64,000 nt of DNA from contig CM073321.1 in assembly GCA_037043015.1 (NCBI GenBank), positions 35,938,101-36,002,100 on the forward strand, given 5' to 3'. Made by a program: the position numbers and the translations under genes. Below the pieces are notes generated by a model. It searched no databases. It had not been told where the DNA came from and worked only from the letters and a program-made list of their open reading frames with translations. Below, piece by piece: positions 17,314 to 55,822 of this stretch (its first letter is position 1; every line of letters starts with the position of its first letter). This DNA comes from Bryum argenteum. Its lineage: Eukaryota; Streptophyta; Bryopsida; Bryales; Bryaceae.

Positions 17314-17755
17314 AATGCCTTAAATCCCCTCATTTACATACGCCATATGTAAGTCCTATGATTGGGTGTATGTAATATATTTTCACAACTTATTGAATAT
17401 AATTATACCAGTACCTACATGTAAAGCAAACCTTGCCAATTTGTCTAACTTGGAGTACTAATCACTTAGAAATATAACCTTAGAAACCTCTTGACATTAA
17501 CAAATTGTCATTTACTGTCAAGTTCGTAGCTCAAGTCCAACCAAATTCAAGGAATTTAAACCCTATTTTCACGGGTTTGGGTCACTAAATCCACGGTAAT
17601 AGGTCTGGAATATTTGAATATTCTCGAGAATATTCGAGAATAATTCTAGAATAAAAAATATTATACTATTTTAGAAACTTTTTTACTAAAGATACAAAGT
17701 CAGCCCTAAAAAGTCAAAAATCTTACCGCTCACCGCTCACACGGTAGCAACGTCC
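17314..17755. repeat. E2 right subterminal region and terminal inverted repeat
   Basis: No gene. It ends ACCGCTCACCGCTCAC followed by ACGGTAGCAACGTCC, the reverse complement of the left heptamer region. It includes the transposase 3' UTR and several ATATTC/GAATATT inverted motifs near 17610-17645. Confidence 0.65.
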
Positions 17756-19692: not shown

Positions 19693-21073
19693 TCTCGGTA
19701 CCGAGACACATATTTCCAAAACCAGAAAGGGCTGAAATCCTCTACATGAGATACGATGGCCAATGGGACATACCTCCCCATTCTGCTGTTCCAGGCCCAT
19801 CAAAGATGAATTTCTCACGAGGAAGTTACACCCATGGCAATTAGAAGACTAGCGCGACACCCATTTTCAGCTCATTCAGTGGAAAACGAGATATAGCATC
19901 CTCGCTAAGACTGCCGCATTGTCCGCCGAGTACTATCTCGGTACCGAGACACCCACTTAAAGATTGCCGAGCCAACTCTCAAAAACTGCTCACTACTGTC
20001 TCGGTACCGAGACGGGCAATTCGACACATACAACTGATCGATATCTGTGAGAAAGCTCAATTTTCAGTTATCAAGTGCTTTCAGGTTCTATCTACATCGA
20101 CTACTAAGAGTGTCCAATCTAATGTGGATGTCAACCACCTCACGAAACGTAATGCCTCATGATTCATCTAAAGCTAGAACAATTTGCGGTAGTTGGACAC
20201 ATGAATGAAGTAAGACTCCCATCAGGATCACAGGAACCGTCAAGGTACCGTCAGGATCCGGCATTCTTTAAAGGTATTGGCATGAGACACTAATCCTGCT
20301 ATATCTTCTTTTTTGATTGGATGCACTAAAAACTACTTGTGCAGATCTACTATTATTGTGTCGTACTATATATTTGCATGTCTTTCCAGATGACAAACAA
20401 GTGCTACACAGTGGGCTGCGCAAGACAAACAACAAACAGAACAACTCCCCCACATACAAAGATCCTTTTCCTTCCCAAACCATCTACATGGTAGTTTCTA
20501 TTGTAACTCATCGACCCATCGAATAGCTGAATACAAACAACAGCAGGGTCTGTTGAATTGACAGAATATCCACAGAAGAATCAACCCTCACACGCACGCG
20601 GACAGAATATTTTCACACCGAGTAGTATATGCATTCCCACAACCGGTACATTCTTGAATATTCTAACTTCTGACAGGAATATTATCATGTATTGATTTTC
20701 ACTTCGAACGGTCCTTACATTTTCTATTCCATTCTTTTCTATCATTTCCGGATTCTGTATCATTTCCAAAGCTTGTGAAGCAACCAGAAGATCACATATA
20801 TTTCATGTGTACTCTGTCCAAAAAGACCTCTCAAACAGCAGCAGGGAGTGTCTATCCGTGCAGAAGGAGTGACCAGCCGTCCAAAAATTTACTATTGACT
20901 ACTCACGGCTGTCTCGGTACCGAGACAAGAAAAACGGTTGCCACAACGAGTGTGGGGGTGACGACCAGCAAAGAGGGCGCCATCGCTAGTGCCATCGCCA
21001 ACACTGGCGGATTCCGACACATACAACGGCTTTCCAACTCTCAGACAGTGCCATGTGAGTCTCAGTACCGAGA
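19693..21073. repeat. Five dispersed GTCTCGGTACCGAGAC palindromes
   Basis: Core TCTCGGTACCGAGA at 19693-19706, 19936-19949, 19999-20012 and 20912-20925 (full 16-bp GTCTCGGTACCGAGAC for the last two), and TCTCAGTACCGAGA with one mismatch at 21060-21073. All lie in one intron of the E1 ParB-MTase gene. Five 14-16 bp perfect or near-perfect palindromes in 1.4 kb is far above chance. Confidence 0.9.
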
Positions 21074-21299
21074 CAAACATTACGAGATTTACATCTTAAA
21101 ACCCTAAAATTGAACTACAAAAATTTGTGATGATATCGCACCCCACGCATTGCAGAAAGTGTGATGTGCTTGAGCTCTAGCTGCATCTCGTTTATCTGCA
21201 GCAACGGAACGATTAGATGAGTCGGCACTGTCGATCAGAGACCCTGCGCATGTCCTCACATTTTCCACTTCAAAATGCCTGCATCATTACCGAGGCAAT

Positions 21300-33196: not shown

Positions 33197-33312
33197 TCCC
33201 CCCCCCCCCGCCGATTCGGGCTGGGTCTTTGATTGTCCAAAGGCGTCGTAGTGTTATTGTTTGTTTCCGTCATTGGGCGACTTTGAGACCACCGTTGTTT
33301 CAGAACAAGGCA

Positions 33313-35565: not shown

Positions 35566-35593
35566 AATTCGTAATTCATTATAATGGGAATAT
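35566..35593. repeat. E3 left terminal inverted repeat
   Basis: 28 bp with core CGTAATTCATTATAATGG; pairs with 55795-55822. A third copy of this end sequence lies internally at 48067-48098. Confidence 0.85.
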
Positions 35594-35925
35594 ATACACA
35601 AAATGGTAAATACAACTTACGGTAATACAATCGCACTTAGATTGGACCAAGCCAAATACATTACCAAATAATGTAAGTTTATCAATATAGAGAGAAGTAT
35701 TCTCAAAATATAGAGCACGTTTGATCAATATAGCAGAATATTCTCAAAATAAAAAGACGAAGTAATGAATATACAAACTATACTTAATTAAAAAGAAGAT
35801 TACATTCAAAATACAAACAATGATTAACACAAATTTACTAAAAGAGGAAGGTTTATTGATTGAAAAATCCAGAAAACAAATTATTGGTGTAATTGTAGAC
35901 CTCCTAAAGTAAAGCCCAGAAAAAT

Positions 35926-37427
35926 CTAAATAGTACTACGTGGACGTGCATCACCAAAAGCCTCATTTCTGTCACGCTTCCCAACAACTCGGGGATAGTC
36001 TCCTTCAAAGGATAGTCCCACACGGGTGATTGTAGTTCGCAAAGGATCATTTAGGTTGACGGGAGCTAAATCGCAGGGTACACCTAGGGCCGTAGAATGA
36101 CTTGAGATATCGGTAATCCGTGCCACAGTGCCTGTCGCTGTATCCGGGATGTTATCACGTGAAGCCGCCACCATTCGACTCGGTACATTGACGTAACTAT
36201 CAAAAACATCATCATCATCATCCATGACGTCTTTGGTGTAGTCCACAGCAGATGCGTCATCTCGAGCAAGATAAATGTACCGCCCTCGCTCCAACTCCGA
36301 GAGCGTCCTCGACCCCTCACTATTGTAAGAGGGACCTGACATCGTAGAGGGACCCATTGGGGGAATATCATCCAGGGAGGCACTTTGTTGTCCATCGCTG
36401 AAAACCTGAATATAATAAAAACAAACACTAAATCTTTAAAAGGCATTCTAATGGTAGACTCACAAGAACAATCGAAAGTGGCAATTCGCAAATCCATGAC
36501 TACAAAATGGTGATGATCTGACCAGACATTAGAACACTGAGTCAAGGAAAAAGAAAAAAAACAAATTTTAACCAATACCGTAAATGAAAGTAATCACGAC
36601 ATGGTTCTTCCATTTAGTAGGAGCTGGTTCCACACATAGGGCAAATTCCGAGACATGATGCCGTACAACTCCGAGTCCTTGGACAAGTCATTGTGAGAGG
36701 GTCTACTAGTCATAACTTGACGGAAGTTCTGCGGACCTCTCAAATGTACGGCAAAACAAAACTCGTGGATTAATTTCAGTAGATAAGAGTCTGAGGGTGC
36801 ACCCAGATGTGAATGGACCCAAGGATCAAGAAAGAGAGTGTTCAGTGGAGGAACAGCCATACAAGCCGCAGGATTGCTATCGACCATAATAAAGTTCTGG
36901 GCGTTGAAATTAGCATCCCTTCTAGTGAAGAGACGTCGACGTGGATATTTAAGTAAGATAGGATTAGTCGTGCAAGGGTACATGGCCGTTGTGTAATTCT
37001 TCAGCAAGAGACCATCGCAGGAGTTTGAGGCCAGTATGATTTGCGGAACGACAACAGTTCTGGAGAAAAGGAAGGTGCAAAGACCGTCGACTACTTCAGG
37101 TTGAAGGGTACTCCAAACGTGGATGTGGCAGAAACGGTTTAACACATTGAGGAATGGTGTAAGTCCAGGACGACAGTATACTACCGTGTCAGCAACTACG
37201 GTGGGGATAGTTGACGAAAGAACAGGAGGGTATTTGGGATCGGAAAAAATAAGGTACTGGGATGGGGCTTGAGACATAGGGGTAGTGGAACAAAGGACGC
37301 CGTTCAACTCCAACACCACATTCAACCACTTGGGCATGGACCGGTATCCATTGAATGATGGCACAGGCGGTAGGGGTTGACCGAGGGTTGTAGGGAAAGT
37401 CTTGCTTGAAGATTTGGACAATCTAGC
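35926..37427 (-). pseudogene. FCP1/NIF-like phosphatase domain, C-terminal part of the E3 cargo gene
   Basis: Exons (minus): 37427-36579 (acceptor TGCTGCAG, no ATG, so spliced from upstream), about 36538-36470, about 36405-35926. The first has the FCP1/NIF haloacid-dehalogenase layout: KWLNVVLELNGVLCS (nucleophile strand, with Glu where Asp is expected), VVYCRPGLTPFLNVL, HIHVWSTL, and FIMVDSNPAACMAV (the distal D-x-x-P). FCP1 enzymes dephosphorylate the RNA polymerase II tail. The nucleophile change, plus TGA 36594 in this exon, argues against activity here. The E0 copy keeps Asp (WLNVVIDIKGIL). The last exon is acidic and disordered (DVMDDDDDVFDSY). Probably the same gene as 37970-43523. Confidence 0.6.
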
Positions 37428-37969
37428 CTGCAGCACAACAAATGACAATAGTGGATGATATTAAAACAAGAGTGTTACCTTGTGAAATGCTGAAGCATGC
37501 AAATGACTGCTCGGAGTGATTGACGACCGGACCGCCACACCGACGCACAGGTCAAGGTGGTCGGTGGGGGTTCTGGTGGCAAGCGGACGGAATAAAGTAC
37601 TCAGAGGCGCGACCCGATAAAAGAATGACGATATTTAGCGCCAAGAATGAGGGAGAATGACGCGGACGCAGTGCAGACGCAAGTGATAAAATAAAAAGTC
37701 TTCATTTTATTGAATGGGGGGTCACTACATGGTACTATCTACAATCGTGGCACACCATCCAATAATTCGAAGACTAACTCGCAAGACCTACTCGCCGTCT
37801 TCAATGCCGGACTCCTGTAAAACAAGGAGCGCCGGCTTTAAGAATTATTACAAAATCAAAAATCATTCAAGCAGAGCAATAATATGAGCAGATGCTCATC
37901 AACCAGATAAACAAAAATTTAGGTCGACCCAACCTAAACAAGATTTGCAACAATTGATAAGAAGCTCAC
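37428..37969. other. Intron of the E3 cargo gene
   Basis: GT donor at 37969 (GTGAGCTTC), acceptor TGCTGCAG at 37428. It contains one element-wide palindrome (TTTAGGTCG...CCTAAA at 37917-37939) and a GC-rich patch at 37510-37690. No gene. Confidence 0.55.
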
Positions 37970-40293
37970 CGTGGAATTAGTCGCAGGTACTGAGTCCAGT
38001 TCGTTGATCGCAGAGACAAGGGAGATTGGGGCACCCTGAACCGCTCTTTGTGCATCTTCCTGCAAGTCTTGACTACCCTCGGGAACCTCATGCACGGAGG
38101 TTGCATCAACCGAAACGGAGGTCACCAAGTGTGAGGTAGCACCATCAAGAAGATCTTCATCTGCTCGTCCGTGGTCGCTTGCTTCGTAATCAACGTTGTC
38201 GTTTCGGTGGCCTGGCGTCTCGAGCGGATGAACGCCATCGTTCTCCTTGTGCTTGGCGATATCAGCTTCCGAACGAGATGCGTCACTGATGACCTGCTCA
38301 ATAACAACGTCGGGTACTGGCGTAGCCGGAGTAGGAAGAATGCAGGCTGGAACTGCAGGATTTGGTTTAGCTGCGAGTTCGGGTGGAGTTTGGCTGGTGA
38401 AAGTCTAAGCCCCACAGATAGCCAAAGTAGGCTGATTGACGGGGTTGTAGGAGGCAAAGGGAAGAGCCACCTGTGCTGTTTGCGTCAACAAGACCCTCAA
38501 ATCGCTCAAATTGCCAGGGAATCTGGAATTTGAGTTCTCCAAATTCGCAAAGTTCGACTCGACTTTGAGTTGATCCTCTCGCTGTTGCTCGTCCAACCTC
38601 GCAAGATCTGCAAGTCTTTACGCCTCCCGTCTTGCATTTGCGGCTTCTTCTTCAGCTCGTTTTGCAGCCCTTATCTCTTCCTTTTCCTTATCACTCTGGG
38701 CACGCTTGGCATCCTTCAAGAGTGGAACGGGAATGTTCGACTCAATCTTGACTCGCGGCTGTGAAGGTTCACCCTTCTCTTGCAGACCGAGACCAAGATT
38801 GATAAGCGGATCGTCGGCCTCGTTTGCTGGCGTGGGGGAATTCGGCTCACCCGAGAAATCAAAAAATGACGTCTCCACCTTCTCAGCAGGGTCGTCAGCA
38901 TGAGTATTCCAAACACCCTTCTTCAACAAAGGGAGGTACCGTCGGCGTTCAGGGGCAGGAGCAGGTAATGCGAGCATAAGAGACGGCGGACGCGGGGATG
39001 ATTCTCTTGTAAGTGGCGCAGGCGGGGATGGCTCTCTTGCAAGTGGCGGAGGCGGCGTTGATCCCCTTTGTACTGCTGGATCCGACGATGGGGCTTGCAT
39101 AGGAGCCGGGGGGGATACGTCATCATCTCCCAAATTCATAGGAGAGGGATCGATATTGTTATCCTTGTCAGACCCTGCAGTTCCCTCCTCGGCACTCTCT
39201 TTGGCGTTCTCTTCGTGAGAACTATCGGAAGTGTGCGCATCTCTGGGCAACCTCTCTTGCCCGAGAACGAGGTCCTCCTCTGAATTAGACCCGAAAACAT
39301 CATTTGCAGCCTTGGTGGGGGTCTCTCGACAATGATCAGAGTTGTCTTCTTCATTATCATCGTGGCTACGAGTTTCGGGGAGGCCCGTGGAGGCGAGTGT
39401 CTCCTCAAGGAGTGTAGGGGGATTTAGGTCGATGCGACCTAAACCCCCACCGCGGGCCAAGGAGCCGCGACGCTCGACCAATGGAAGAACTTCATCAACG
39501 TCGTCATTGGAGCTAAGATTTATCAGCAGGTTCCTGTAAACAGGATCGATGCTCTGGATGGGCTCAATGCTTAGAGCCGGCACGCCAGAAGGCCCACTAG
39601 GTGCGTGTGACGACCACGACCACGCCCATGCCCACCACGACCACCGGATGAACGAGCGCCACCAGACGACGGATTACTACCACAAGCACGGCCACCAGAC
39701 GATGGACGACCACCACGAGCAACACCAGCAGACGACGGATCGCCACCACCAGCAGGCGACGGATCCCCACCACCAACAGACGATGGTTTGCCATCAGGAG
39801 CCACAGCAGGAGAGGATGCCTCACCACGACGAGCACGACCACCAGATGACGATGCCTCCCCACGACCACGACGAGCAGATCCGGTAACCCCAGCCTGAGG
39901 CGGTCACCCAGGCTTCGGACCACGAACCCAAACTGAATTCACATAGGCGTCCACACAGAAGTCGTTCGGATCGAGATTAAAACTACTTTCTCGGACGGCT
40001 ATGTACTTATCCAACTCATCTTTGTCCTCGTAGACAATATGAGTCTGAAGATTAAGCATCTGCGAAATGAAAATACAAAGTTAGTCTACTAAGAAGAACA
40101 GAAGAGCGGATGTGAACTTGACAAAAACAGACATTTAGGTGGCATTGACCTAAATGCCCAAATCAGTGTCAAGTCTGAAGAATGCCAAGTAAATCTAGTG
40201 TACTTTAGACTGAGCCGAAATAAATTGACAAGTAAAACGGAAGAGCAGATGCGAACTTGACAAAAACAGACATTTAGGTGGCATCGACCTAAA
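37917..40293. repeat. E3 family palindromes in introns and linker
   Basis: Arms TTTAGGTCG and CGACCTAAA, or close variants, occur at 37917-37939 (intron), 39423-39443 (perfect arms, 3-base spacer, inside coding linker), 40134-40155 and 40273-40293 (both in one 258-bp intron). Degenerate tandem versions fill 41706-41820 (intron). The same half-sites form the minisatellites at 43.2-44.3 and 50.8-51.9 kb. Confidence 0.85.
37970..39583 (-). pseudogene. Disordered linker of the E3 cargo gene (acidic, Pro-rich, coiled coil)
   Basis: Main open frame 39583-38618: acidic and Ser-rich (NDDVDEVLPL, HDDNEEDNSD), then Pro-rich (STPPPPLAREPSPPAPL), then a charged helix (KEKEEIRAAKRAEEEAANAR). A shifted frame continues through 38.6-37.97 kb to a GT donor at 37969. 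E0 has the same order (62.8-61.76 kb). It connects the methyltransferase-like and FCP1-like domains, in the manner of a flexible tether. No domain recognised. A palindrome (39423-39443) sits within the coding sequence. Confidence 0.5.
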
Positions 40294-43200
40294 CGCCCAA
40301 AGGAATGAGAAACTTACAATTCCTGCAAGCATGGGCTTTGTTCCACCCATGATCGACAATAAATCTGTTTCCTGGAACAATAAACATTCGCAGTACGCGA
40401 ATGTAAAACTCCAAGCGCAACTCGTTGTCGTTGATGCAGAAATCGAACTCCCTGTAAGCTCCTGGTTCTGATACAGGGGCAACTCCGGGGCATAGAATAC
40501 CTCCGGAATTTCATCGAATACCTCCGATACCTAGTGGGTTCTTTTCAGAAGAAACAAGAGTGGAATGCGGTGTTTGTCCACGACCTTCCCCTCCAAGATA
40601 CCGTTGAGACGCTCATTGTTCGCGGGAGCGTAGTGAACTGCCTTTGACTTGTACAAATCCTTGAAAGCGTTGAAATATACGACGGACTGGCAATGACGAT
40701 CGATAGTCTCCGTAATAATAAGCCAGACGTCAGGATTCTTGATGGAGGGGTCATACACAGAATCCTTCCAAGCATTCAGGAAGTCCTTGAATTAGACATT
40801 CGAAATATCGTCCACTCTGCTACTATGGCCCGGGACGCATCTGAGGTCGATAATGCCCAACGCGCATCTTCCATCGTCCCAAGTATACCCATCATCCCAG
40901 CCAGCGAATTGAAACGTCTCAGCATCAAACATTCTTGTGTGAAGTTCCGGGATTGGCAGCGAAAAATCCCCTTTCACTTCCAAAAACTTCTTGAAGAACT
41001 CTGCAGCGTACTCGGAGATCTCTTCAGAATTCTTGTTCTTCGTCCTCTTCTGGCGGTAGTCGCTGAAGAACACGTCCTCGGGCACGGAAAGGAGCATCGA
41101 CATGGTTTGCCGATTGACGTTGTATTCGAACTTGAAAAGCTTCCACTTTTCAACCACAAACTTGTCAGCACTGTCGAATAACCCCAGTGCTGGCCTGATG
41201 TTGTGGAACTCTCTTGCAACTCATTTCTTCCTCTTGCGCTTCTCCAGCCACACCTTTATCGAAATGCACTCCCAGTAGTTCATTTTCGGTTTCTTCAAGG
41301 ACACCTTGGGATACGGTAGGTCCCGGTCCGGAGTCCTATTCAGAAGATGAAGCGCTAGTGTTTTGAAGTCGTGCTCCTCAAATCCAGACATTTGTCTGAA
41401 GGTATCGCGAGTCAAGACGATGTCCTTATGTTTTGACTCCCAATCAAGAGCCCGGTTGAAAGGGTCGCAAGTGTCGGGGTCGATCAACTCTCCCATCCCA
41501 ACTGCAATGATAACTCCGGACCACAGCTGGTACACCTCCTCAGAAGCGGTGATGATTTCTAATTCGTTGAGGAGGTCCGCTGGCTTCAAGAGCTTGTCGA
41601 GGGATTTCGTGTTGATACTCATGAAGCGTTTCACCATGGCCTCTTCAAAATCGTAAATAAGAAAGAGCGACATCAATTCAAGAACATGACGGGATGATCA
41701 TATAGCTCGAGTCCAGCTAAACGCACGGAATTTAGGTCGAGTCTAGCTAAACGCACAGAATTTAGCTTGCATCGGCATAAACACCTGAAATTAAGGTTGC
41801 GTCAAGCTAAATGCCACAAATCAAGAAGATAAAATTATAAGAAAATGCAGGACTTACCTCATAGTTCTTTCGAGCGATAGCTTGCTCGATTGTTTCCCGA
41901 CCAGACTTCGGCTTTGCACCACACTTTGCGGGCGACCCGTATTCTATCCAAACGCTTCTCGCGGCCAATATGTTTGTGGCCCACGATGGTGTAAATGTTC
42001 CCGCGTTGTTGGTCTTGTTCGCCATGATAGACACGTCCATGATCATCTTCGCGTTTGAATGCCAAACAATATGAGCCCGCCAAGTCTTCAAGGCGGTAAT
42101 CTTATCGGCTGAGATTCTAGCCTCCTTGATAAGCTCCTTCGCAGCTTTGACGTGATGCTGCCCATCGATCACACGGAAGTTGCACTTTGACTCGAGCAGT
42201 GCATCCCAGTTCCAAGTCGCAGGAGCCACAGTGATGATGGGCATGATGATGATGGTCTGCATTGAATTCAAATCGATCGAATTCGTTAGGATATTCTTGT
42301 AATGGACAACTCCAGCGGGCTCAAGCTTTCGGACGATGAAGCGCGCATCAGCTTTCTCGAGGAGTTCGATGTCCACATTGACAGGTGCCGAGTCCTTGCC
42401 AAAAAACGTAACAAGGCTCGCACTTTTCCCAAAAGTCCTTCAGAGTCTTACTTGCAGCTTCGTAGTCGATGTCCTTCTCGGTTGTGGCATGCTTGATTGA
42501 AGGATTCATGTACGTAATTGTACTGCCTGCCAAATTACTCTTGATTCTCTTAGGCTGCTTAACTGGCGAGGGGTTCGAGTTGCGGCGTTTCCGCGAAGGC
42601 GTAGGAGTTACCTCAATGGAGGCCATACCAGACCGCACTGTTCCTGACCCGGTACCCTCCTCAAAAGCAGGCATGAGTGCCTTCCTTGCGGGTGCTTTGC
42701 CTTTCGCCTTGCTTCTCTCGTAGTCGTTCAGAGCACTCCAGATATGCATGCAATGCTGCTGGTACGTCTGCACAAATTTCATCGAAGAGCTCACATTCAG
42801 TATTCCACCCATGATGTGGTCTACGAGCCCCGCCTCCGTCTTCCCAACCATGTAACCCTTGATAGTGTCGTGCGAGTATCGCACTTCATTTGAAGGAAAG
42901 ACGATGGTGAAGACGAATCCACGAACGTAGGTCACCTTGAGCGTGATTAAAAGGTGTGACTCCTCATAGTTCACCGCGTATATGAAAGTGTCGTTGCAGA
43001 ATGGGAGATGGGTAGGATTAGTTCGAGACTGTTGAAACAGGTGGAAAATTCCTTTCTCCTTCGGGTACAAGGACCACGACACAATAGAATTTGGCCTAGG
43101 AGTCCACAACATGCCGTATTGCTCGACGTCTGCGACAGCAGAGGCAAGTACATCTGTAGGCTTCACAACAAGGGGCTCCAAGTATCCTTCAATAGTACTA

Positions 43201-43523
43201 AGGTCAAACGGTACCTGATTTTAAAGAAGCAACAAGATGTGCGTTTAGCAAGCATCTACTTAAAAGATGTGCGTTTAGCAGGCATGTACCTAAAAGTGGT
43301 GTCTTTAGCAGGCACCTACCTAAAAGATGTGCGCTATGAAGTCCTCTACCTAACATCTACTGGATATGAATTTAAAAACAAACGATCAGAATTTAAAAAC
43401 AAACCATTAAAGTACAAGAAAAATTCATACCTGATTGTCAAGAGGTTCATCCTGACTTCCAGAACGGATGTCCCTCTCTGCGGGAGCGGGAACGATTGTA
43501 GCAGTCTGCTTGGTGTGAGCCAT
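39571..43523 (-). pseudogene. E3 ParB-like and methyltransferase-like domains (5' part of cargo gene)
   Basis: Exons (minus): 43523-43431 (ATG, MAHTKQTATIVPAP), 43214-41858, 41640-40318, 40059-39571. Exon 2 has a basic nuclear-signal-like stretch (SRKRRNSNPSPVKQPKR). A one-base break at a T6 run near 42410 follows, then the ParB/sulfiredoxin signature NFRVIDGQHHVKAAKELI (about 42130-42180). Exon 3 shows GIIDLRCVPG where motif IV would be. Its end and exon 4 give MGGTKPMLAG then LQTHIVYEDKDELDK, the shape of methyltransferase motif I with a following acidic residue. Exon 4 ends in a Gly/Ser/Arg-rich tail. Stops TGA 41221, TAA 40792, TAG 40531 and TGA 39904 are all C-to-T type; two compensating frame shifts lie near 40350-40450. 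Same domain order as the E1/E2 cargo, suggesting a common ancestor. Confidence 0.58.
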
Positions 43524-44295
43524 GTCTGCAATTTAGCGCAATAACTGTGTGTTTAGCAGGCAGCTACCTAAAAGCTGTCCAATATGAGGCATCTACCTAA
43601 CAGATGTGCGTTTTGGAGGCAGCTACCTAAAAGATCTGCGTTAAGCAGGCAGCTACTTAGAGATGTGTGTTTAGCAAGCATCTACCTAAAAAAGGTGTGT
43701 TTAGCAGGTACCTACCTAAAAGATGTGCGCTATGAAGTCATTTACCTAACATCTGTGCATTTGGAAGGCAGCTACCTAACAGAAGTGTTTTAAGGAGGCA
43801 GCTAAGTAAGAGGTGTGCGATAAGGGGGCAGCTCCCTATAAGGTGCATTTAGCAGGGAGCTACCTAAAAGCTGTGGGTTTAGCATGGTGCTACGTAAAAC
43901 ATGTGCGTTTATCAGGGAGCTAGCTAAAAGATATGCGTTAAGAAGGCATGTACGTAACATCTGTACGTTAAGGAGGCAGCCACGTACGAGCTATGCTTTA
44001 ATGAGGCAGCTACGTAAAAAATGTGCATTTAGCAGGGTGCTACCTAAAAGCAGTTCGTTTAGAAAGCAGCTACATCAATGGTGTGCGTTTAGAAAGCAGC
44101 TACCTAAAAGCTGTGCGTTTGAAAAACAGCTACCTAAAAGCAGTGGGTTAAGCAGGCAGCTACGCGAGAGCTCTGCGTTTAGGAGGCAGCTACCTAAAAA
44201 GTGTGCGTTTAGCAGGCAGCTACCTAAAAGCTGTGCGTTTAGCTCGTGAAATTGGAGATACCAGTTTTTGCGACCTAAAAGATGTGCGTTTAGCT
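43245..44295 (-). repeat. E3 left minisatellite (degenerate ~28-30 bp units)
   Basis: About 35 degenerate units, typified by GTGCGTTTAGCAGGCAGC then TACCTAAAAGCT. It is the inverted counterpart of 50831-51935. It occupies the first intron and leader of the minus-strand cargo gene, whose first exon (43431-43523) lies within it. Confidence 0.85.
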
Positions 44296-44530
44296 CGTAA
44301 AATAGGAAATACCTGATTTTGCGACCTTAATGCACACCCATCGATCTAAATGCACACCCATCGACCTAAATGCACAATGTAAAATGTAGAGCGCGGAGAG
44401 TCGAAAAATGCAAGATCAGATTGGAATTGAAATGCAAATGCGTAAGAAATCGGGATCGCGTATGCAAATTGCGTACTTGCTAAGAGTGGAGAGAGGAAAA
44501 GCAAGCGCGCTTGAAATGTTGAGACCCTAG
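44296..44530 (-). promoter_or_regulatory. E3 promoter-like arm, left (inverted copy of 50612-50830)
   Basis: The reverse complement contains AAGCGCGCTTGC, CTCTCTCCACTCTTAGCA, TTACGCATTTGCATTTCAAT, TCGACTCTCCGCGC and TGTGCATTTAGGTCGATGGG, nearly identical to 50612-50800. It lies directly upstream of the minus-strand gene. A shared sequence upstream of two genes, each reading away from the core, suggests a duplicated promoter. Confidence 0.65.
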
Positions 44531-44639
44531 CCGCAAATCAGAAATCAAAACAAGAACGACCTAATCGCAGCCAAAACCCCAGCTCAAACGCAGCTCAATC
44601 GCAGCAGTAAAATCCCCAGCTCAATCGCAGTAGAAATCC

Positions 44640-45070
44640 CAGCATAATCGCGCTAAGAGGGCGACGTAGAACACCAGCAAGAAGACCGCGACGATCGGCG
44701 CAAATGCGCGAAGGTGGGAGGACCTGCGACGACAAGAAGAACGAATGGCGCGGAGCTGAGTAGGAGGAGCGGCAAACGGCAATGCGAGCGAAAAACAGCG
44801 AGAGTGTTGGCGGGACGCTCGCGCGGGAGATGTCGGCGACCCCGCCGACTGCCCAGGGTATGGGCCACGTGGCGGCTGCTCGGGCTGCCCTACGAACATT
44901 AGGCGGCGCTGGGCCGGTGCCCCGGCTGCCCCTAGGTGCCCGCTGCCCGTCCGTGATGGGGCAGCGCTGCCCCGGGTGCCCTGGCTGCCCCGTGCTGCCC
45001 GTTGCCCTTACGGGATGGGGCCCCGCTGCCCGGTGTGCCCCGACTGCCCCGTGGTGCCCGCTGCCGTAGT
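44640..45070. other. GC-rich block on the left edge of the AT-rich core
   Basis: Very GC-rich; 44911-45066 is a short tandem pattern of GGTGCCC, GGCTGCCC and CGCTGCCC words with many CpG. Open frames on both strands reflect composition. No gene recognised. Confidence 0.6.
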
Positions 45071-48000
45071 ATTGTAATTTTTTTGTTTTTTTTATTACTA
45101 CAGTTTGTTAAATTCATACACTGTAATTCACAATATTTATTTTTGTATGTTTTTTTTTTGCACTTCCATTACTTACAAAATGTCCAAATTTATTAATTTT
45201 CTAATTCTTAGAATATTCTCTAGACGACTTTACTGCACTTTTTGAGATTTATTTAACCCCAAAGAGTCCAAACAAGCGGATTATGATCGAACCTCATTTT
45301 TGAAGAGCAATAAGCAAATTATATAAGTTACTTTTTTATTTATTTTGTAACCTATTTGAAGTTTGTTAAGTTATAAACGCCATTCAATTCTCAAGACTCT
45401 AATTGATTTGTTAGAATGATTGTTCCGAATTAGCCTTCAATCACAAACACGACAAAGTTTCCTTATTCTAAGATTATTCGGCGTAATTATTATGGATTCT
45501 TATTATTTACTTCTACTTTATTATGATTTTATCATATAATATTTGTAATGTGTAGTTTTTTGTTTCAAATGATTTTGATATTGGATTTGCAATGATGTTT
45601 TGCCAACAGTAAAAATGAAGAATGTATGATACTTGAAAAACTATATCTCTCTCATCCACCGTTAGAATTCAACTTAATTTTTTGAAATGGCCTCCAATGT
45701 TTTGAAATGTTCAGTAGTTTCTACGATTGCATGACTTTAATTTCAGCCAAGAAATTTTTTTGATGTATTTTTGTTAAATAAAAAACTCGTAAAGATAAAT
45801 GCGAACAACTTAATCTCATTGGTTATAATTTCATTGCAATACGTATATTAGTAGCAATTTTACAACATAGTCTAAATAATAAAATTTTGCAATTATTTTG
45901 CAATTATTTTGCAATTTTGCAATTTATTTTTGATATTAATAAGTTATGTTCTTCCAATTTATAAGACCTCAAATATTGGTCCACAATTAACGATTATAAT
46001 ACAGTTATTAAGACGATGCTTCATCATAATTATGTTGTTCATATTGTATAAAACATCTAAGTTTTTCTTCTAACTTCTCGAGTTTTAAGCATTTAAAATC
46101 TTGTCATTTCATATAAATTATTACATATAATTGCTTTATTCGTTTGTTTTTGTCAAAATTGTATCATTTTTATATAGTCATTATTAGCTGGAATTCAACT
46201 CTCTTTGCTGTTATTAATATATTTGTAACTACACATCTACTGTAGTTGTATGCTTAATTTTTTAATTGTTTGCTATAAAATGAGTTACATAAATTAAACT
46301 CAAAAAAAAATAAAAAATAATAACACTTTTATTTCAAATTTTTTTATACATTTTGAATGTTTAAACTGTTATTAAATTTACATTCTACTTTTGTATATCT
46401 TACTTATTTATTAATGTTAGTTATATAAATTTCATAACATTACATATAGATGCGATTATGTCAATAATATTTCTTTGCATTTCTACAATTCTTTTTTTTT
46501 TTTTAATAATAATCATAACATGATACTTACCTAGCCAAATAATGGAATTTTTCTATTCGTTTCATTAATCTATTTTTTCATTATTTTTAGATATTTTGTT
46601 CATTTTGAACAGTATTAATCAGAATGAACCGTATAGATGTAATACTGATATAATTTTAGATATTAGATTTTATAATCTATACACGCTAATTTTTAGTTTA
46701 ATCAAAATTTATAATTTTTCTTAGTTTTTAATTTGCTACTTTACTTCTTTTTTTGAAATTTGTATCAATTTATATTTTTATCAATAGAGTAAAATAGTTT
46801 ATTTTTTTCATAAAAGTATGGATATTTCAATCTTACATTTCTCTAAGATACTAGTTATTCAATTTTAATTGCAAAATTGATCAACATTCAATCTATATTG
46901 AATATATTCGCAAGCATTTACAATTAAAATAAGTTTTAAATGAAAAACATCCTAATAAATTACATTTCTTCTTTTTCTGAACATGATTTCTTGGTTTTTT
47001 TTCGTTTTTATATGCGACGGTGTATATCAAACAAGTAACGGAGTATATCAAACAAGCAACGGTATATATCAAGTGAGCAACAGTGTATATCAAACAAAAA
47101 CATTGTTTATGTAATGACAGGTCACAATTTAAAATCAAAGAAAGAAACATAATTCTTTATCTTCTTATGTATCAAAACTGAAATTTGCCTATGCGCATTA
47201 GTTATGTCAGAAACACAATCGCAAACTCGGTAGGAAAGAACTTTGTATTTGCCGATTCTACAACCTTTTATCATAGCTGTAGCAATGTTTCAACACTCCT
47301 AAACATAGAAGAATGCAAAATATATAAGACTTATTGCAATCTTTTCACACAAAATTGAAACTCAACACAAGTCAAGTGTCGTCTCTCACTTCTTCAAAGA
47401 AATGTAAGGAAGTATTAAAGTGCACGCCAGAAGATAAAATTATCCATATTGATGAAAAATTAAGAAAATCATTTATGATCGAATAGTTTCATTCGTTTCG
47501 ATTTTAATAATCAATCTAGATTCTCTGGATATATGTACATTGTTGCTGCTTGGGGGTTTATTGGGTGATTTTCTGAAGAGTTCGTCACTTCGTCCGGACA
47601 ACATGGTGAAAGATCCTGGCTTGGATAGCTGATGAGATAGATAGCGCGTGGATGGGTGCAGGTCCGAACTTGAGTGGATTGTTCGGAAGAACGTCAGGAA
47701 CGACCGCTGGATACACCTTCTCCAAAGCCAACAAGGAATAGTGTTGTAATTCAATATAATGGTATCATTCACTGATTTTGAGAAATATTACATATATGAC
47801 TAAATATGAACAACGCGCGTTCTACAATTAAGACAATAGTTGCAAATTGATTTCTAAAATTTAGGTTCCATGAAGATATTCTTTTAATATGTAGATTTTA
47901 AGATCATAGATGGAGGGATCTCCCCATGTTTTAAAGTCCATAAATAAGCCGAAAGTCCATATTTAGTTAAATGATGCATAAATGTGGGTTTAACTTGAGT

Positions 48001-50355
48001 CGAACTAGATGTACCCACACAATACATTTGGCTCAACTGAAGCTCAATTTTCATCAATTTCATAATCTGAATATTCCCATTATAACAAATTACGTGTTTT
48101 AAGCTTACGTTTAAGCTTAAGAAGGTTTAGTACTAAAAACTTTCATTTCTTTAGTTACTTTTCATAAATCTTAATCTTATGATTACACAAGGTCAAATAA
48201 TCAAAGACATAAGCATAGAATAGTTTCAATTTCTCACACATAGTGTTTCTTAATATTCAAGTGTTTATTTAGTTATTTAATCCTCAGGAATGAAAGTTAA
48301 AATCTAATATAATGTTGTAAAATAAGTAATACTAAAGATAAGATTAAAATGGTTATCTAATTAAAAATTGTCACAGTAGATTAATTTTTGTCTCTTGTAT
48401 AATTATGAATTTGTATTCAGTTTGTGTTAATGTACCTTTACTTTTAGTTACAATACAACTTAGAGATCTTCGATAATATTTTTACTTTTCAAAAATGTAT
48501 GTTATCATTTGTAAGCATGAAACTGCTTTATTCTACTTATTCAAACGTTGTGGATGAAAGACTGATGCATTGCAAAATGAGGTTTGCATATGTCGCGCTT
48601 TTACAATAGCTAACATTTGAAATAACGAGAGTATAAGTCGAACGGAATTATACTAATTTTATATAGAAGTTGTTTAGCGGAAATTTCATTCAAACAACAG
48701 ATCCGAGTTTCAATATAACTTAGAAAAATCAGGTGTTTGTTTGATTTTGTGACAAATTTTAATCAAGATGTATTTGTATGGATATTAAAGTTGCCGTAAA
48801 AAAGTTACCGTTACTGCTACGGTAGAACCGACGCAGGTAGATAAGTATATATTAACATAATATTAGCCCGTAAAATAACTCGATCGTATAATACGAATGA
48901 CATGTATATCTAACTTAATATAAAATAAATATTTATGTTGAAAATTGTGTTTACGTATTTTGTTTATTAATTATTTATGGAAATCTGATTTATCATTTAT
49001 ATTTATCATATATATTATAAAATTATATAAAATTTAAGAATAATTTTATTCTGTTAAAATAAATTATAATTTGTTCTTAAATTTATTTAAATAAAAATAC
49101 CTTGATTGTTTTATTTTATTACTTTTGTTTTTTCGTTTGGTTTTAATGATTTTATAGAAAAATTTATGCTCAGTTTGATGATTTATAACTGGTTTATGTA
49201 TTTGAAATATACATTGAATTATAAGTATTATCTTCGTGAATAAATAAGTTTTTGATAAATATAACATGTAAAATGTTACATCTATAAAAAATTTATATCA
49301 ATTGATACGTAATAAGCTAAAGACTATATTAAAGTTAACAATATTAGATGAATTTATTTTTTGAAAATATTAATTTTTCTCAAAAGTTATATGTATGATT
49401 TAGTTTTCAAAAAGTTACAAAAATAAATTGTTATACTTTATTTAAAGCCTTAATAATCGTTATATCCTAATAACTTTATATATAATATTTGTTACATCAT
49501 TTTTGGTATGAAAATAATATTTAATTATTTGCTTTTCGAGTATAGATAATAGTTTGATTAAATTTAGAGTAAAGTATACTAAAATAAGTATTTAGTAAAT
49601 AAGTATGAACTTATATTAACATAATTCTTACTAAATTTGGTGATGTAATATAAGAATAATTAGGATTCAAACATTTTATAAGTAGTATTCTAAATTTTGT
49701 GTTTATTTATTTTAAGCGTTGAAATATTCTAATCTAAGTATTTGGAAAATAACGTTCAGTAACCTACATATATTAGTACTAATAATTTCTAATAGAGGTA
49801 TTCTAGGATTAAAATTGTTGTAAGTGCAATATTCAAAGTTTATTACCTACGTACAATATGTTGTGTCTTGTTAATTTATTTATTTACTAGATTTGATGTG
49901 GTATACTAAAGTAAATATTACGTAAATGAAGTTTGATATGATAGCTATAATATATTAGAATTTCATTGAAATTTGGTTTATTAAGATTTGAATCTAGATA
50001 TTGTAAGGGAAATATTCTAAGATTTTAATTGAGTTATTTGATGATCAATACTCGAAGTTTAGTAACTCGTAAAGTATATGTACTATTCTAGGTCTGGAAT
50101 AATTTAGTTATTTTGAATGTGTTATTGTATGATTCGATTTGAATTATTTTTATTCATTTATTTTGAGATTGATCTAAAGTGAATAATTTAGCACAACGTT
50201 AGAAAGTGTGATAGAAAGAGTAAGAGATTACTTATTAGCCTATGTAAAATTAAAATCCTAATCAATGATTTTGAAACAAATAAGTTAGTTGCATTACGGA
50301 ATTATGTCTTAATTTTTTAATAAAAATTTATTTCAGACTTAATTTATTTTGATCA
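45071..50355. other. AT-rich core of E3 (5.3 kb)
   Basis: No gene recognised. Extremely AT-rich with many A/T runs; longest open frames are short and low complexity. Two items stand out: a GATATACAC/TATATCAAAC tandem at 47018-47100 (about 18-20 bp units around CAAACAAGTAACGGAGTATAT) and a copy of the E3 terminus at 48067-48098. It lies between the two divergent E3 genes and their inverted promoter arms. Confidence 0.6.
48067..48098. repeat. Internal copy of the E3 terminal repeat
   Basis: Reversed, it reads AACACGTAATTTGTTATAAT then GGGAATATTCAG, matching the E3 right end over about 40 bp including bases inside the terminal repeat. Orientation is that of the right end. Confidence 0.7.
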
Positions 50356-50611
50356 TTGATTTAGTGGGGCGTGCAGCCCCCGGGCACCTCCAGTAAAGGC
50401 CCCACCCGCACGCCCACGTCGTCGCGCGGGCGGGTAAAGGCGTGGCGCCATCAGCATAGGCGACCCGCCGCCCGTTGGCGCGAGCTTCCCGCCCAATTTC
50501 GAATGGGCTTCCCGCCTCGCATTACCCGCCCCGGGGGGCCCCACGGATCGCTCGCCCGGCCCCGCCCCGACCGATGCTTCCTCCGCCCTTCCTTCACGCG
50601 CTCAAGCAGAT
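50356..50611. other. GC-rich block on the right edge of the AT-rich core
   Basis: Abrupt change from AT-rich to CpG- and C-rich DNA (for example GCGCGGGCGGGTAAAGGCG). It does not align with the left GC block, so the inverted arms start just outside it (at 50612). Confidence 0.55.
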
Positions 50612-50830
50612 GGTCTCAGCATTTCAAGCGCGCTTGCTTTTCCTCTCTCCACTCTTAGCAGGTACGCAACTTGCATACGCGGTTCCGATTTCTTACGCAT
50701 TTGCATTTCAATTCCAATCTGATCTTGCATTTTTCGACTCTTCGCGCTCTACATTTTACATTGTGCATTTAGGTTGATGGGTGTGCATAGGTCGATGGGT
50801 GTGCATCAGGTATTTCCTATTTTACGAGCT
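50612..50830 (+). promoter_or_regulatory. E3 promoter-like arm, right
   Basis: Inverted copy of 44296-44530, from GGTCTCAGCATTTCAAGCGC to the first minisatellite unit. It lies upstream of the transposase gene. The transcription start is unknown; the leader would run through the minisatellite. Confidence 0.65.
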
Positions 50831-51935
50831 AAACGCACAGCTTTTAGGTCGCAGCCTTCTAAACGCACAGCTTTTAGGTCGCAGCCTGCTAAACGCACAC
50901 CTTTTAGGTCGCAGCCTGCTAAACGTACACCTTTTAGGTCGCAGCCTGCTAAACGCACACCTTTTAGGTCGCAGCCTGCTAAACGTACACCTTTTAGGTC
51001 GCAGCCTGCTAAACGCACACCTTTTAGGTCGCAGCCTGCTAAACGTACACCTTTTAGGTCGCAGCCTGCTAAACGTACACCTTTTAGGTCGCAGCCTGCT
51101 AAACGCACACCTTTTAGGTCGCAGCCTGCTAAACGCACACCTTTTAGGTTGCAGCCTGATAAACGCCCAGCTTTAGGTAGCTGCCTGCTAATCGCACAGA
51201 TTTTAGGTCGCTACCCGCTAAACGCACGGTGTGTAGGTCGATGCCTGTTGAACGCAGTGTTTAAGTCGCTACTTGATAAGCGCACAGTGGTTAGTACTCT
51301 CCCAACTGAACGCAGTGTTTGAACGCTGCCTGCTAAACGCACAGTGTTGAGTACTCTCCCATCTAAACGCAGTGTTAGGTCACTGTCTACTAAATGCACA
51401 TTGTATAGGTCAATGTTTGCTAAACGCACAGTGTTTAGGTCGCAACCTGCTAAACGCACAGATATAAGGTCGTTGCCTGGTAAGCACACGGTGTGTAGGT
51501 CGATGCTTGTTTAACTTAGAGTATTTAGGTCGCTGCCTACTAAACACACTATTCAGGTCGCCTCCAACCGAATGCAATGTTCAGGTCGCTCCCTTAAAAC
51601 GATCAGTGTATAGGTCACAGCCTGCTATACATTCAGTGATTAGGTCCCTGCCTGCTAAGCGCTCGGTGTGTAGGTCTCTGCCTGTGTAACGCAGTGTTTA
51701 GGTCGCTGCCTTCTAAAAGCACAGTGGTAAGAACTCTCGCAACTGATCGCAGTGTTAGGTCGTTGCCTGCTAAACATGCAGTTTTCAGGTCGATCCCAAC
51801 TAGAGGCAGTGGTTAGGTCGCTGTCTGCTAAACGCAGTGTTTAGGTCGATTCCATATAGATGCAGAGTGTTTAGATCGCTGCCTGGTAAACCCGATCTGT
51901 TTAGGTCGATGCATTCTAAACGCACGGTATTTGTT
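50831..51935 (+). repeat. E3 right minisatellite (30-bp units)
   Basis: Eleven near-perfect 30-bp units from 50831 to 51160, each AAACGCACACC then TTTTAGGTCGCAGCCTGCT, followed by about 25 degenerate units. AAACGC and AAACGT versions partly alternate, giving a 60-bp higher-order period. It contains the TTTAGGTCG half-palindrome of E3 in every unit. Length divisible by three leaves all six frames largely open, so the long repetitive ORFs here are not evidence of protein. Confidence 0.93.
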
Positions 51936-52188
51936 TAAGTTATTGTTTCAGCTATGTCAACAGTCTAATGGTTTAGATCGTTCGTATTGGATGTCAAATG
52001 ATTATTTATGAACTAGTATATTAGGTAGGAAATTAAGTCCAGTCGAGCTAAATACTACTTCCTTAGGTTTTTCTCAGCATGTTCTGAGATTTCATGTTTG
52101 CGTGTTCATTTCTCTAATGGTTATTTGAATCTTTTGTGATGTTGTATAGCATATTCACGGAGCTATAATCAGAGTGTGACCGCTCTAC

Positions 52189-55117
52189 ATGGCGAGTAGT
52201 GCGTCCGATGACGACTGGGACAATCGAGGTCTTTCTTCAGAGGTATTAAAATCTCCAGGGCTTTGTTTCCATCGACGTCTATGGTGGTTTCTTGTTTAAC
52301 ATAATTTTTTTTTGGTTATTAGGATTTGGAAGATGTTGAGCTCGTTCTGCCGGATCATTTGAAGAATTGTCCTGAACTCCCGAGATGCAAATGGATAACC
52401 AAATTTGTGACACTATTGAATCCTGGAGGGGCCATTGTTGCAGAGGGTATTTGTCAAAGTGAGGGGTCTGATTGTGTATTGGGCTCCAATGACGAGCCTT
52501 TGCGAGATGATCAAGTAGTTGTTCAGATTGTAAAGTGCTTGGATTTAGAGTTTTGCCTTCTGATACAATATTTCAGTCATTAAAATGGGATCTCAGCCAC
52601 GCCATTCATGACGGTTGGTCTTTACTTAATCATTTGCATCGGGAGCAATACAATATTGCGGTTTATGCTCGTGATTAACCGGAGAGGAAAGGAGTTCGTC
52701 CGTATACTTTGGGAGAAAGACATCCAACGATCCACAGAACTCGGAGGGAGGAGCAACTATTGACCGTAGAGTCTGTCAATTTGGTTGCAAGTATGAAGTG
52801 TTGCAGTAAAAATTGCTGTCAGCCATTCCCTCGCCAAAAGATTCTGACCTTGAGAAAGCAGATGTACAAGTCTTCAGATTTTAAGTTCAAGGCGCACTTT
52901 AAGATTGATGTACATCATCGATTTCATAAAACTGCTGACGGGAGTATGATGGTTACAACGGAAGGTATTGATAATTGTGCTCGAGCTTGGCAGAATATTA
53001 CTAGAGTTCCTCCTGCAACGTTTTACAGGAAGAAAGCAGAGGCGGCTGCTGGTTTACGGGCTCGACATCACGGGAATGTTGGCTCGAAGAAACCTCGACT
53101 TCATGTGAAGCAAGCTGCTGCAACGCTTAAAGTGTTAATCGACAATGCAGCTGATCATATGCCGCACAAAGCGAAGATGCTCAGTAATGGACTCAAAGTA
53201 GTATCACGGTCATTGCCTTCCTCCTTCAAATGGAAAGATACGATCCCAGATATCAATCTCATCAACGAGAGGTTGGGGCTGAAATTCATCGCGCAAAGTA
53301 CTCTCAGCAAGATTAGGCGAACAATATTCTCTGAGTATTCGAAGAAAGCACCCGGAGACTATTTTGCTCGATGTGCAACGTGTGATAAACTTGAGACCAT
53401 GATCAAGTCCATGGTGCCAGATTCAAGTGAAGAGAACATGTGGATCAAAAAGCTTAAACCGCACTTGGACCATCATCAAACACATCGTGAGTATTATTAT
53501 ACAAACCGCTCTTTATCTATTCAAAAGCCCAAAGATGTTCTTTGCATTATCCACGACAAAATGGATCATGCGAAAATGGCTTGTCCTTTGTTCTCTCACA
53601 AAACAAAAACAAATGATGCACTTATGAAACTTCCTATTGCTGTGACGGGAATGATTGCTCACGGGCATTGCCATGTTCGTTATGCTCACTATGGACTTGA
53701 CATTTATCCGAGTGATTGCAATCACACTGTTGGATCTATTTTGAAGCTTCTGCGGGATTTAGAAGGACTTCCAATATCACATTCCAAGTCATTGTTTACT
53801 GGATCTGGAACGCATCCTTTGTTTGAGGCATTGCTTGTCGGAAAAGATGCTTGTTTGAACTCTCTTTTGCCTGAGAGTGAGTCATCAGGAGTTACGGAAT
53901 CCTTTCCTCCAGTTTTACATGTGCAACTTGACAACGCCGCCTCCGATAACAAAAATCGGTTCATGTTTTGCTTTTGGTCCCTTCTGGTACATATGGGCGT
54001 TTTCCGTGAAATTTACGTCAATTTTCTTTTAGTTGGACATACTCATGAAGATATTGACGCTGTGTTTGGACGTTGGAGTATGATTTTAAAGGAGAATGAA
54101 TATTTGACGATTCCTCTTCTGATGAAATCGTTCATGGATGCTGAGGCACTCTCAGTTATTCCACATTTGATTGAGGAGATTCCCGATTTTAAAGGATATA
54201 TCAAGGATTTCATCGCTTCTAAAGACGAAGTTCTTATTGGTCATTCGGAAGGGCAACAATTTAAATTTTTCAAACATGACAACGGGTGGCCCATGATGAA
54301 GTACAAGATGTTATGTTCTGACAATGAGTGGCTTCCATTGACAAGTAAAGGAATAAAATTGTGGAAAGAGAATTCTATTACTGGTATGCCTCTATTGCCT
54401 ACGGGAGAAATGAAGCCTCTAGCATCAATTCCTATGAAGAATCTCGATGAAATTGTGAAAGGTATATCAGGTTTCATTAAGTTGTGGGAAACTTCATGTG
54501 CCCAAGACTTGTCAGGAGAGTTTCGTCGACGACATGATTCTGTTTTACGATATTGGCGTGCAGTCAATGATTTTTTGTTGGCGCCCATGGAGGTTTCTTC
54601 TACTTTGGAGAATGGATGTTGGCCTTTGTCTCGAGTACCGTTGATTCAAGAATATCTGAACACTGGCGAATTACGCGAGGAATATGGGCAAGACCCCCAT
54701 TTTATTGGCCGATTGTGTGATAAACCAAGAGAGTCATTTCGCGTTGGTCGAGATGTATTTGTCGGCTACTTTTTGGCTTTACGTCCTGCAGATGGAGATG
54801 CTCGACCCTTTTGGATTGCGCGGACTGATTTCGATGTAGATCGCAACAATCCGGGATGTATTCAAATTCAATTTTTTAAACCTTTTAGCAAGCGCACTCT
54901 TGTTCAAGATACCTATGTCGGCTGGGACACACAAAAGAATTTTAAATGGGTTTTTGATGACAGCCATGACCCGGTCTGGCTTTATGCTGGTGCTATTTTT
55001 ACAACATGGAAATCGAGTGCCAAAGCTGGTTCTCAACGTCCAACAATCTCAATATCTGAGCAACAGGTAACCATCATCAAACAAAGTATTTTGCGTTTTG
55101 AGGTCGAGGATGAATAA
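52189..55117 (+). CDS. E3 DUF7869-type DDE transposase-like protein
   Basis: Exons 52189-52242, 52323-52529 and 52577-55117 (~930 aa). The last intron would be only 47 bp (GTAAAG...TTTCAG), so a frame shift is the alternative. ATG 52189 is chosen because MASSASDDDWDNRG splices in phase. One TAA (52676, CAA type) lies in exon 3; the frame is then open for 813 codons. Features: Cys-rich KCCSKNCCQPFPRQK; IIHDKMDHAKM (Asp, 53555); LHVQLDNAASDNKNR (Asp, 53930); and NFLLVGHTHEDIDAVFGRW (about 54030), the hallmark of the DUF7869 family. The D...DN...GHT-x-x-D pattern is that of RNase H-fold transposases. It is the only candidate mobiliser inside E3. Catalytic residues look intact. Confidence 0.75.
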
Positions 55118-55338
55118 AATTTTTGATCACTCAAGACATTGGTATTTAGGTCACGTCGACCTAAATAGTCAATCGCGGCTTTAGCTATTATGGAGGATAA
55201 AGTGGATAAGAGCAACAAAGTATTCTGGATTTTGAGGCGGAGGAGGAATAAACATTTTGATCACTGAAGACATTGGTATTTAGCTCACGTCGACCTAAAT
55301 AGTCAATCGCGGCTTTAGCTATTATGGAGGACAAAGTG
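55089..55338 (+). repeat. Tandem duplication (~125 bp) at the transposase 3' end
   Basis: 55089-55212 and 55213-55338 are about 90% alike. Each contains the end of the coding sequence (TTTTGAGG...GAATAAA), ACATTGGTATTTAG and the palindrome ...GTCGACCTAAAT. Only the first is in frame with the gene. Confidence 0.85.
55144..55300. repeat. E3 family palindromes in the transposase 3' UTR
   Basis: ATTTAGGTCACG then TCGACCTAAAT at 55144-55166, and a variant (ATTTAGCTCACG...) at 55278-55300. More half-sites at about 55699 and 55730. Confidence 0.8.
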
Positions 55339-55794
55339 GGCAAGGGCTCGTCCATAATTTTTTCTCGAATTGGATTTAAGCTCAATAACGTTGAAGTTGT
55401 TTAGAGCTTTCTCGTTCTAGGCAGAATCAGATAAGTAGATTGGTGTAATTTTTTTGTAGTAGCACTGTATTGTAACTGATATTTAAAATAGAATCGTATC
55501 TTTAGAACTATATATAATATTTGACATTGTGATGATTACTCATTTTAAGGTGTTTTCCGTTCTGATTTGCTATTCTTTCTAAATTAGATATGGAATGTGT
55601 TTTGACCATTCCAAATATATGTTCTCAATATAGTTGACTTTCTTGTTTTAATGGGATGTTTTGCTTATATTAGAGAGTTTTGAGTTTCTTATTTTGCACT
55701 TTAGGTTGAGCTGAAGTCCTTTTTGTGGGATTTAGGTCGATGATAATAGAAATATTCTCACTTTAACGAAATATGTTATTTGATGATAATTTGA
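55339..55794. other. E3 right subterminal non-coding region
   Basis: AT-rich, no gene; likely 3' UTR of the transposase plus subterminal sequence with TTTAGGTCGATG half-sites close to the end. Confidence 0.45.
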
Positions 55795-55822
55795 ATATTT
55801 CCATTATAATGAATTACGTGTT
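55795..55822. repeat. E3 right terminal inverted repeat
   Basis: Reverse complement of 35566-35593 with three mismatches. Followed by GCAA (55823-55826), matching the left flank GCAA at 35562-35565. Confidence 0.85.

Follow-up and report, generated by a model that had tools for sequence, protein, structure and literature searches.

Why should plant DNA transposons carry a gene that combines a ParB-like segment with a methyltransferase-like one? The question is raised by a 64,000-nucleotide stretch of the moss Bryum argenteum (contig CM073321.1; hereafter the window), in which three transposons, E1, E2 and E3, each hold such a gene, here called gene X. The initial annotation treated it as one cargo gene common to two unrelated transposon families and suggested an anti-silencing or DNA-marking module. 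Our answer is tentative, with a probability of about 0.4: gene X may encode a sequence-specific factor by which a transposon recognises itself and counteracts silencing. We favour this reading because the layout of E1, and of E3 and its divergent relative E3b, resembles that of VANDAL/VANC transposons. The gene X product would bind the palindromes of its own family, which lie mostly within introns or next to genes, and its binding would keep the gene regions of the element transcribable, a VANC-like effect reached with different domains. The palindromic form of the motifs would suit binding by a dimer.

Gene X of E3 and the family-specific palindromes

E3 gene X lies on the minus strand and extends from its start at 43523 past 39571 to ~37.9 kb; the gene originally delimited as 39571..43523 was therefore confirmed and proved longer, and the motif strings reported for it were found at their places. 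Exon 1 (43431..43523) holds the start codon, immediately preceded in the window by an in-frame stop. Exon 2 (41858..43214) encodes the ParB/DGQHR-like segment FRVIDGQHHVEAAKEL (motif at 42166), and exon 3 (40318..41652) a helical region and a methyltransferase-like core that ends with GNRFLSIMGGSKPMLAGI in intact copies. Exon 4 (37937..40059) encodes MLNLQTHIVYEDKDELDKYI followed by a Gly/Ser/Arg-rich and coiled-coil-like tail, and is open over 714 amino acids in copy c5. The window copy carries frameshifts and stops that are missing from other copies, in which long open frames are retained and the exon structure is visible. Synonymous change is relatively commoner in the predicted coding frames than in other frames. 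A further intron near 42400 was considered and rejected, the apparent exon break being a frameshift.

Searching the window with the palindromic pattern TTTAGSTCGANTCGASCTAAA, allowing up to three mismatches, returned 10 sites, all of them inside E3, compared with none in 100 shuffles. On the plus strand, two sites (40134..40154 and 40273-40293) lie at the intron at methyltransferase-like motif I, two (41701-41721 and 41731-41751) in the intron between exons 2 and 3, one (37918..37938) at the 3′ end of gene X and one (39423..39443) in coding sequence of exon 4. The remainder comprise a variant with three mismatches in the gene Y region, where it falls in an open frame (36050..36070), another upstream of the transposase (52032..52052) and two sites near the right end of the element (55145-55165 and 55279-55299).

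The E3b family, represented by one fetched neighbourhood, has the same three genes as E3 (a transposase, gene X and a NIF-like gene), and its stretch holds 27 palindromes, 21 of them without mismatch (0 in 10 shuffles). These adjoin or separate the exons of all three genes, as judged from predicted introns. E3 and E3b carry palindromes at matching places, namely the motif I intron, the intron between exons 2 and 3, the gap that separates gene X from the NIF-like gene, and the transposase on its 5′ side; in the first intron, E3 has arrays of 30-bp half-site repeats where E3b has palindromes. Across the genome, exact TTTAGCTCGANTCGAGCTAAA occurs at 5878 sites, versus 0 for the reversed pattern. 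Within the interval spanned by the first 100 of the E3b-type palindromes, each of the five scored ParB-like exons has a palindrome at most 1.4 kb away, and 5.6 % of that sequence lies within 1.5 kb of such an exon.

E1 has a palindrome of its own, the 16-bp GTCTCGGTACCGAGAC, of which five copies (two perfect, three with one mismatch) lie at 19692..21074 on the plus strand. Genome-wide, 47 of its 48 exact sites fall at most 4 kb upstream of an E1 gene X, in intervals that make up 0.036 % of the genome. At least one palindrome is present in 18/23 E1 stretches, a set in which two rows were merged and the five weakest omitted.

The N terminus and domains of gene X

Histone H3 begins with ARTKQTA. 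MARTKQTA, which reproduces H3 residues 1-7 after Met, is encoded by 37/50 copies of E3 exon 1, the window copy reading MAHTKQTA. Six copies examined further encode MARTKQTA (four), MARTKQTT (one) or a stop at codon 6 (one). There are 55 exact MARTKQTA coding matches genome-wide, sorted by their codons into 42 in E3 and 13 in H3-like genes of the host, the latter recognised as DNA matches alone; all six of the 42 that were fetched are E3. After the start codon, the 50 exon-1 copies show eight distinct synonymous and seven non-synonymous codon changes (including one stop and one two-base change), out of 17 synonymous and 46 non-synonymous single changes possible. An identity of seven residues at the exact start is very unlikely to have arisen by chance, and the simplest origin would be a host H3 gene whose beginning was captured. 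In the E3 branch, such an N terminus would attract H3K4 readers or act as a decoy for enzymes of the H3 tail.

The methyltransferase-like region was upheld for E1 and E2 and finds weak matches in E3. Against a curated PF01555 cut-off of 26.7 bits, gene X scored 27.0 bits in E1 (27.9 in a second scan), 27.6 in L039 and 21.7, under the cut-off, in E2. Phage DNA methyltransferase families matched with best E values of 1.6e-7 (E1) and 3.4e-5 (E2). A joint E1/E2/L039 profile recovered four distinct PDB sequences at E<=0.01, all methyltransferases, led by the DpnA-type 5hfj (E 9e-10) and including the adenine methyltransferase CcrM (E 5.5e-4). Methyltransferases in the PDB were recovered solely by short C-terminal profiles; the whole-protein profiles A10 (E2 and Ceratodon) and A11 (E3-type relatives) matched none at E<=1. 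Apart from CcrM-type matches of E1, an NCBIfam scan returned weak, chance-like matches only. Searching the genome with the PF01555 profile gave 32 matches at E<=10, two of them at the cut-off and 29 on the motif I segment.

Motif I reads DCSAATG, DWSASTG or DLTASTG in E1, E2 and L039, not DPFxGxG, and motif IV of E2 is FADAPEN, not D/S/N-PP-Y/F/W. The exon with the latter motif is stop-free in 126 of the 150 matches listed (manual count). A database search with E2 gene X recovered three Ceratodon proteins (3/8000 scored candidates) with 48-51 % identity, which retain [IF]ADAPE, SWN-R-K-Y, DWWGYNPLPMAST and IVFDWSA-TG; their models have no ParB-like N-terminal part, and they score 14.5-18.3 bits against PF01555, under the cut-off. 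Because ADAPE and FDWSA-TG are retained in these proteins, the E2-type departures from DPPY and DPFxGxG are conserved features and not decay. The motif IV described originally as degenerate is thus non-canonical, as claimed, and conserved. We consider it more likely that a domain with such motifs would bind DNA or a cofactor than that it would methylate.

In E3, the later part of gene X (ELRLEFYIRVLRMFTVPGNRFLSIMGGSKPMLAGI-MLNLQTHIVYED) aligns by eye with the surroundings of methyltransferase motif I, and a Pfam scan gave no PF01555 match. Both of the two PDB matches (E<=10) of a two-family E3-type profile are PRMT7 in the expected register (E 0.037); a six-sequence profile gave eight matches, two of which are again PRMT7 in that register (E 0.0084). 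The PRMT7 matches are suggestive, not proof. The best row of the six-sequence profile, the designed repeat protein 7ue2, was rejected as chance, no stretch passing alone, as were five other unrelated rows (E 0.15-4.6). E3-type proteins have ID[FLV]R in place of D/S/N-PP-Y/F/W at motif IV, and IMGGSKP, VFGGGK or LYAGTK in place of DPFxGxG at motif I. Three hhalign comparisons of E1/E2 with E3 protein profiles gave probabilities <1 %. Since no profile comparison connects them, what E1/E2 and E3 have in common is a layout and not demonstrated descent, and of the single shared gene proposed at the outset we keep the layout alone.

Large cargo genes of a ParB-plus-methyltransferase-like kind are carried by both unlike transposon types, as first noted, but the ParB label lacks statistical security in every family. 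The E3 segment weakly matches the ParB-like phage family phrog_1033 (E 0.017) as well as DndB (E 0.05), and a PDB search with the ParB-like profiles A8 and A7 matched no ParB-type structure. E3, E3b and E3c, a further related family, have in common GQH and N-x-x-N...F-x-P-x-W-A-x-N-I-L-A-A-R.

The carrier elements and their relatives

E3 is a 20.26-kb DNA transposon (35566..55822) whose ends were set by comparing other genomic copies. It is flanked by the 4-bp target duplication GCAA in the window (35562-35565 and 55823-55826), and by ATGT and TTTG in two other copies; its terminal inverted repeat reads AACACGTAATTCATTATAATGGGAATAT, from which the left end of the window copy deviates. The locus recurs across the genome, with at least 33 matches (33 of 385 candidates scored). 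The DUF7869 transposase lies on the plus strand at 52679..55117 (PF25273, 143.2 bits) and gene Y, which is NIF/FCP1-phosphatase-like, on the minus strand at 36594..37460 (PF03031, 42.1 bits; 58.9 bits for gene Y of E3b). DxDx is the active-site motif of NIF/FCP1 phosphatases. At its position, the five E3 copies with the pattern among seven sequences scanned read ELNG, and E3b reads DLNG; because of these replacements, the E3-type phosphatase may be inactive.

Direct repeats of 30 bp with TTTAGGT/GTTTAGC half-sites occupy 43234-43333 and 43546-44243, in the first intron and upstream of gene X, and an array of opposite orientation lies upstream of the transposase (50828..51932). Together with a pair of 177-bp sequences that are 96 % complementary (44350-44526 and 50612-50788), these inverse arrays border a 6-kb centre with few long frames, which is retained in several other copies. 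Next to E3, at 28490-34287, are frames that we take to resemble the polyprotein of a Ty3-type retrotransposon, with 300-bp repeats at 25647 and 34451. The window belongs to sequence C1 (44.1 Mb of 259 Mb, 17 % of the assembly), on which 30 of the 33 scored E3 matches and 34 of the 42 E3-type MARTKQTA sites are located. C1 could be a sex chromosome or a transposon refuge of some other kind.

Gene X of E3b shares 26-33 % identity with that of E3 across the exon with the ParB-like segment. A genome search with this E3b exon gave at least 151 matches (150 of 825 candidates scored), which fall mainly into two groups, at ~80-100 % and ~60-65 % identity, the second being E3c; the exon is stop-free in ~85 of the 150 matches listed (manual count). 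A database search with E3 itself matched 0/6749 candidates, while E3-type gene X outside this genome was matched by 43/6690, among which 12 Ceratodon purpureus and five Physcomitrium patens proteins were named. By name, 8 of the 12 Ceratodon relatives lie on the U or V sex chromosome. PF03031 is carried within the same predicted protein by 6 of 16 relatives scanned, the NIF/FCP1-like part being fused to gene X in some Ceratodon models.

E2 is nested in E1 at 5548..17755 (ends approximate), between 11-bp target duplications CATAGAGAAGC (5537-5547 and 17756-17766), and the empty site is present in four E1 copies elsewhere. The carriers are thus as unlike as first claimed, E3 having a 4-bp duplication, a DUF7869 transposase and its own terminal inverted repeat. 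The SWIM/MULE label given to E1 and E2, next to whose gene X lie transposase-like frames, is based on a weak SWIM match (E 0.34) and the 11-bp duplication. E2 gene X has ten predicted exons on the minus strand (6558..10812; EGNHH at 10140, FADAPEN at 7781, FDWSASTG at 7165). E1 gene X, also on the minus strand, is present as a 5′ half (17734..19277, ParB-like DGNHRR at 18769) and a 3′ half (3202..5534, motif I GDIVLDCSAATG-ASIHAC), the motif IV exon being apparently missing in the window copy. A short tandem repeat, TTCATTCATCGGCAG, lies in the E1 region at 21315-21452. L039 (C4:20498150-20498800) is a further E1-like family that reads DLTASTGAS and lacks an intron at motif I.

Competing explanations and known systems

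Several observations weigh against self-recognition and anti-silencing as the role of gene X. The ParB-like assignment falls below significance, with no significant ParB/Srx match in profile scans of E3b, E3c, E1 and E2, and AlphaFold2 gave no usable fold for the ParB-like exon of E3 (predicted local distance difference test score, pLDDT, 34.9) or for its methyltransferase-like exon (pLDDT 31.5). Neither E3b nor six Ceratodon/Physcomitrium relatives, some of them partial models, proved to have the H3-like start, which therefore lies outside the core function; the selection signal in exon 1 is weak, and its sample consists of copies within three mismatches. Two of the 10 window palindromes (36050 and 39423) lie within open coding frames, a scored ParB-like exon is at most 10 kb away for 65, not all, of the first 100 E3b-type palindromes in the genome, and E2 has no comparable palindrome, just a 17-bp stretch that occurs twice. 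Finally, the palindromes could be transposase sites, the region upstream of E1 gene X also facing the E1 transposase side. The main rival, which we regard as rather unlikely, builds on this last point and makes gene X a transposition accessory, a second subunit of the transpososome, with the palindromes as transposase or accessory sites like subterminal repeats. Gene X does stay with the transposase in E3 and E3b and adjoins transposase-like frames in E1/E2, and palindromes also lie upstream of the E3 transposase and near the right end; yet many are intronic or intergenic rather than terminal, those of E1 are upstream of gene X, if in that two-sided region, and the NIF-like partner and H3-like start would indicate chromatin or transcription.

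It seems improbable that gene X is an active DNA amino-methyltransferase marking its own element with N6-methyladenine or N4-methylcytosine (4mC) at the palindromes. The matches of the E1/E2/L039 domain to DpnA-like and CcrM adenine methyltransferases, the acidic residue retained after motif I in all three, and the precedent of bdelloid N4CMT on eukaryotic transposons (PMC8885841) argue for it, but motif IV is ADAPE (E2, Ceratodon) or ID[FLV]R (E3 type) instead of the canonical form, and the FxGxG of motif I is lost in E1/E2. That gene X belongs to a ParB-parS-like system that segregates or clusters the element's DNA is highly improbable: the GQH box, the multi-copy palindromes and the phrog_1033 match are in keeping with it, but no ParA-like match was found among those E3 frames scanned, chromosomal transposons need no partition and the ParB match is not significant. 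Just as little credence goes to gene X as a passenger, made of captured host genes useless to the element, with the motifs as relics; the copies in the window are broken, but gene X is common to several moss genera, E3 and E3b hold the same gene set, and most of the E2 and more than half of the E3b/E3c matches listed have stop-free frames, as counted above.

Of the two functions suggested originally, marking by methylation is the less likely because the motifs are altered, whereas anti-silencing gains circumstantial support from the intronic and gene-adjoining family palindromes, the H3-tail-like N terminus and the VANDAL/VANC parallel. A bolder form, in which a palindrome-specific, ParB-like pseudo-methyltransferase with an H3 tail would coat the element in decoy tails and so escape silencing, an unrelated second transposon type having come to the same layout independently or by exchange, strikes us as quite unlikely. 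To our knowledge, sequence-specific anti-silencing by transposons is known chiefly from Arabidopsis VANDALs. If self-recognition and anti-silencing are indeed the role of gene X, mosses would have a second such system, with other proteins and defined palindromic targets, and a transposon protein with a histone H3 tail at its N terminus. Gene X and its palindromes would form testable protein-DNA pairs and offer a clue to hypothetical-protein families of Ceratodon and Physcomitrium.

Influenza NS1 and SNAG-domain factors are known mimics of the histone H3 tail. As in these, a protein end copies H3 residues around K4 in E3; it differs in that the seven residues stand at the exact N terminus after Met, in a transposon protein. 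Our literature search on DUF7869 transposons, ParB cargo and histone mimicry by transposons, whose scope did not extend to subscription journals, found no title or abstract describing such cargo. Prokaryotic fusions of ParB with an adenine methylase (Bce_0392, polyvalent proteins) serve mobile elements in conflicts (PMC5512222) and likewise join ParB-like and amino-methyltransferase-like parts in a single protein; gene X differs in residing in eukaryotic transposons, in being split by introns, in its altered motifs I and IV and in a ParB part that is not significant. The bdelloid enzyme N4CMT, encoded by the host and possessing a working SPPY motif, puts 4mC on transposons (PMC8885841). N4CMT and gene X both bring a bacterial-type N6_N4_Mtase domain into a eukaryote and are linked to transposons and chromatin, but gene X is transposon-borne and has ADAPE instead of SPPY.

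The closest parallel in layout is that with VANDAL/VANC. In Arabidopsis, arrays of a short motif bound by VANC21 occupy the introns of VANC and VANB and the region upstream of VANA (PMC5735166), and VANC proteins remove DNA methylation family-specifically (PMC5735166, PMC10398659). As in those elements (PMC5735166, PMC10398659, PMC13317346), we find multi-gene DNA transposons whose cargo protein stays with the element and, in E1, E3 and E3b, family-specific short motifs in accessory-gene introns and upstream of the transposase. A VANC-type family was absent from the Pfam matches of gene X, a direct comparison with VANC sequence not having been made. Unlike in VANDALs, the motif here is a dyad-symmetric palindrome, gene X has methyltransferase-like and ParB-like parts, and E3 combines 4-bp duplications with a DUF7869 transposase.

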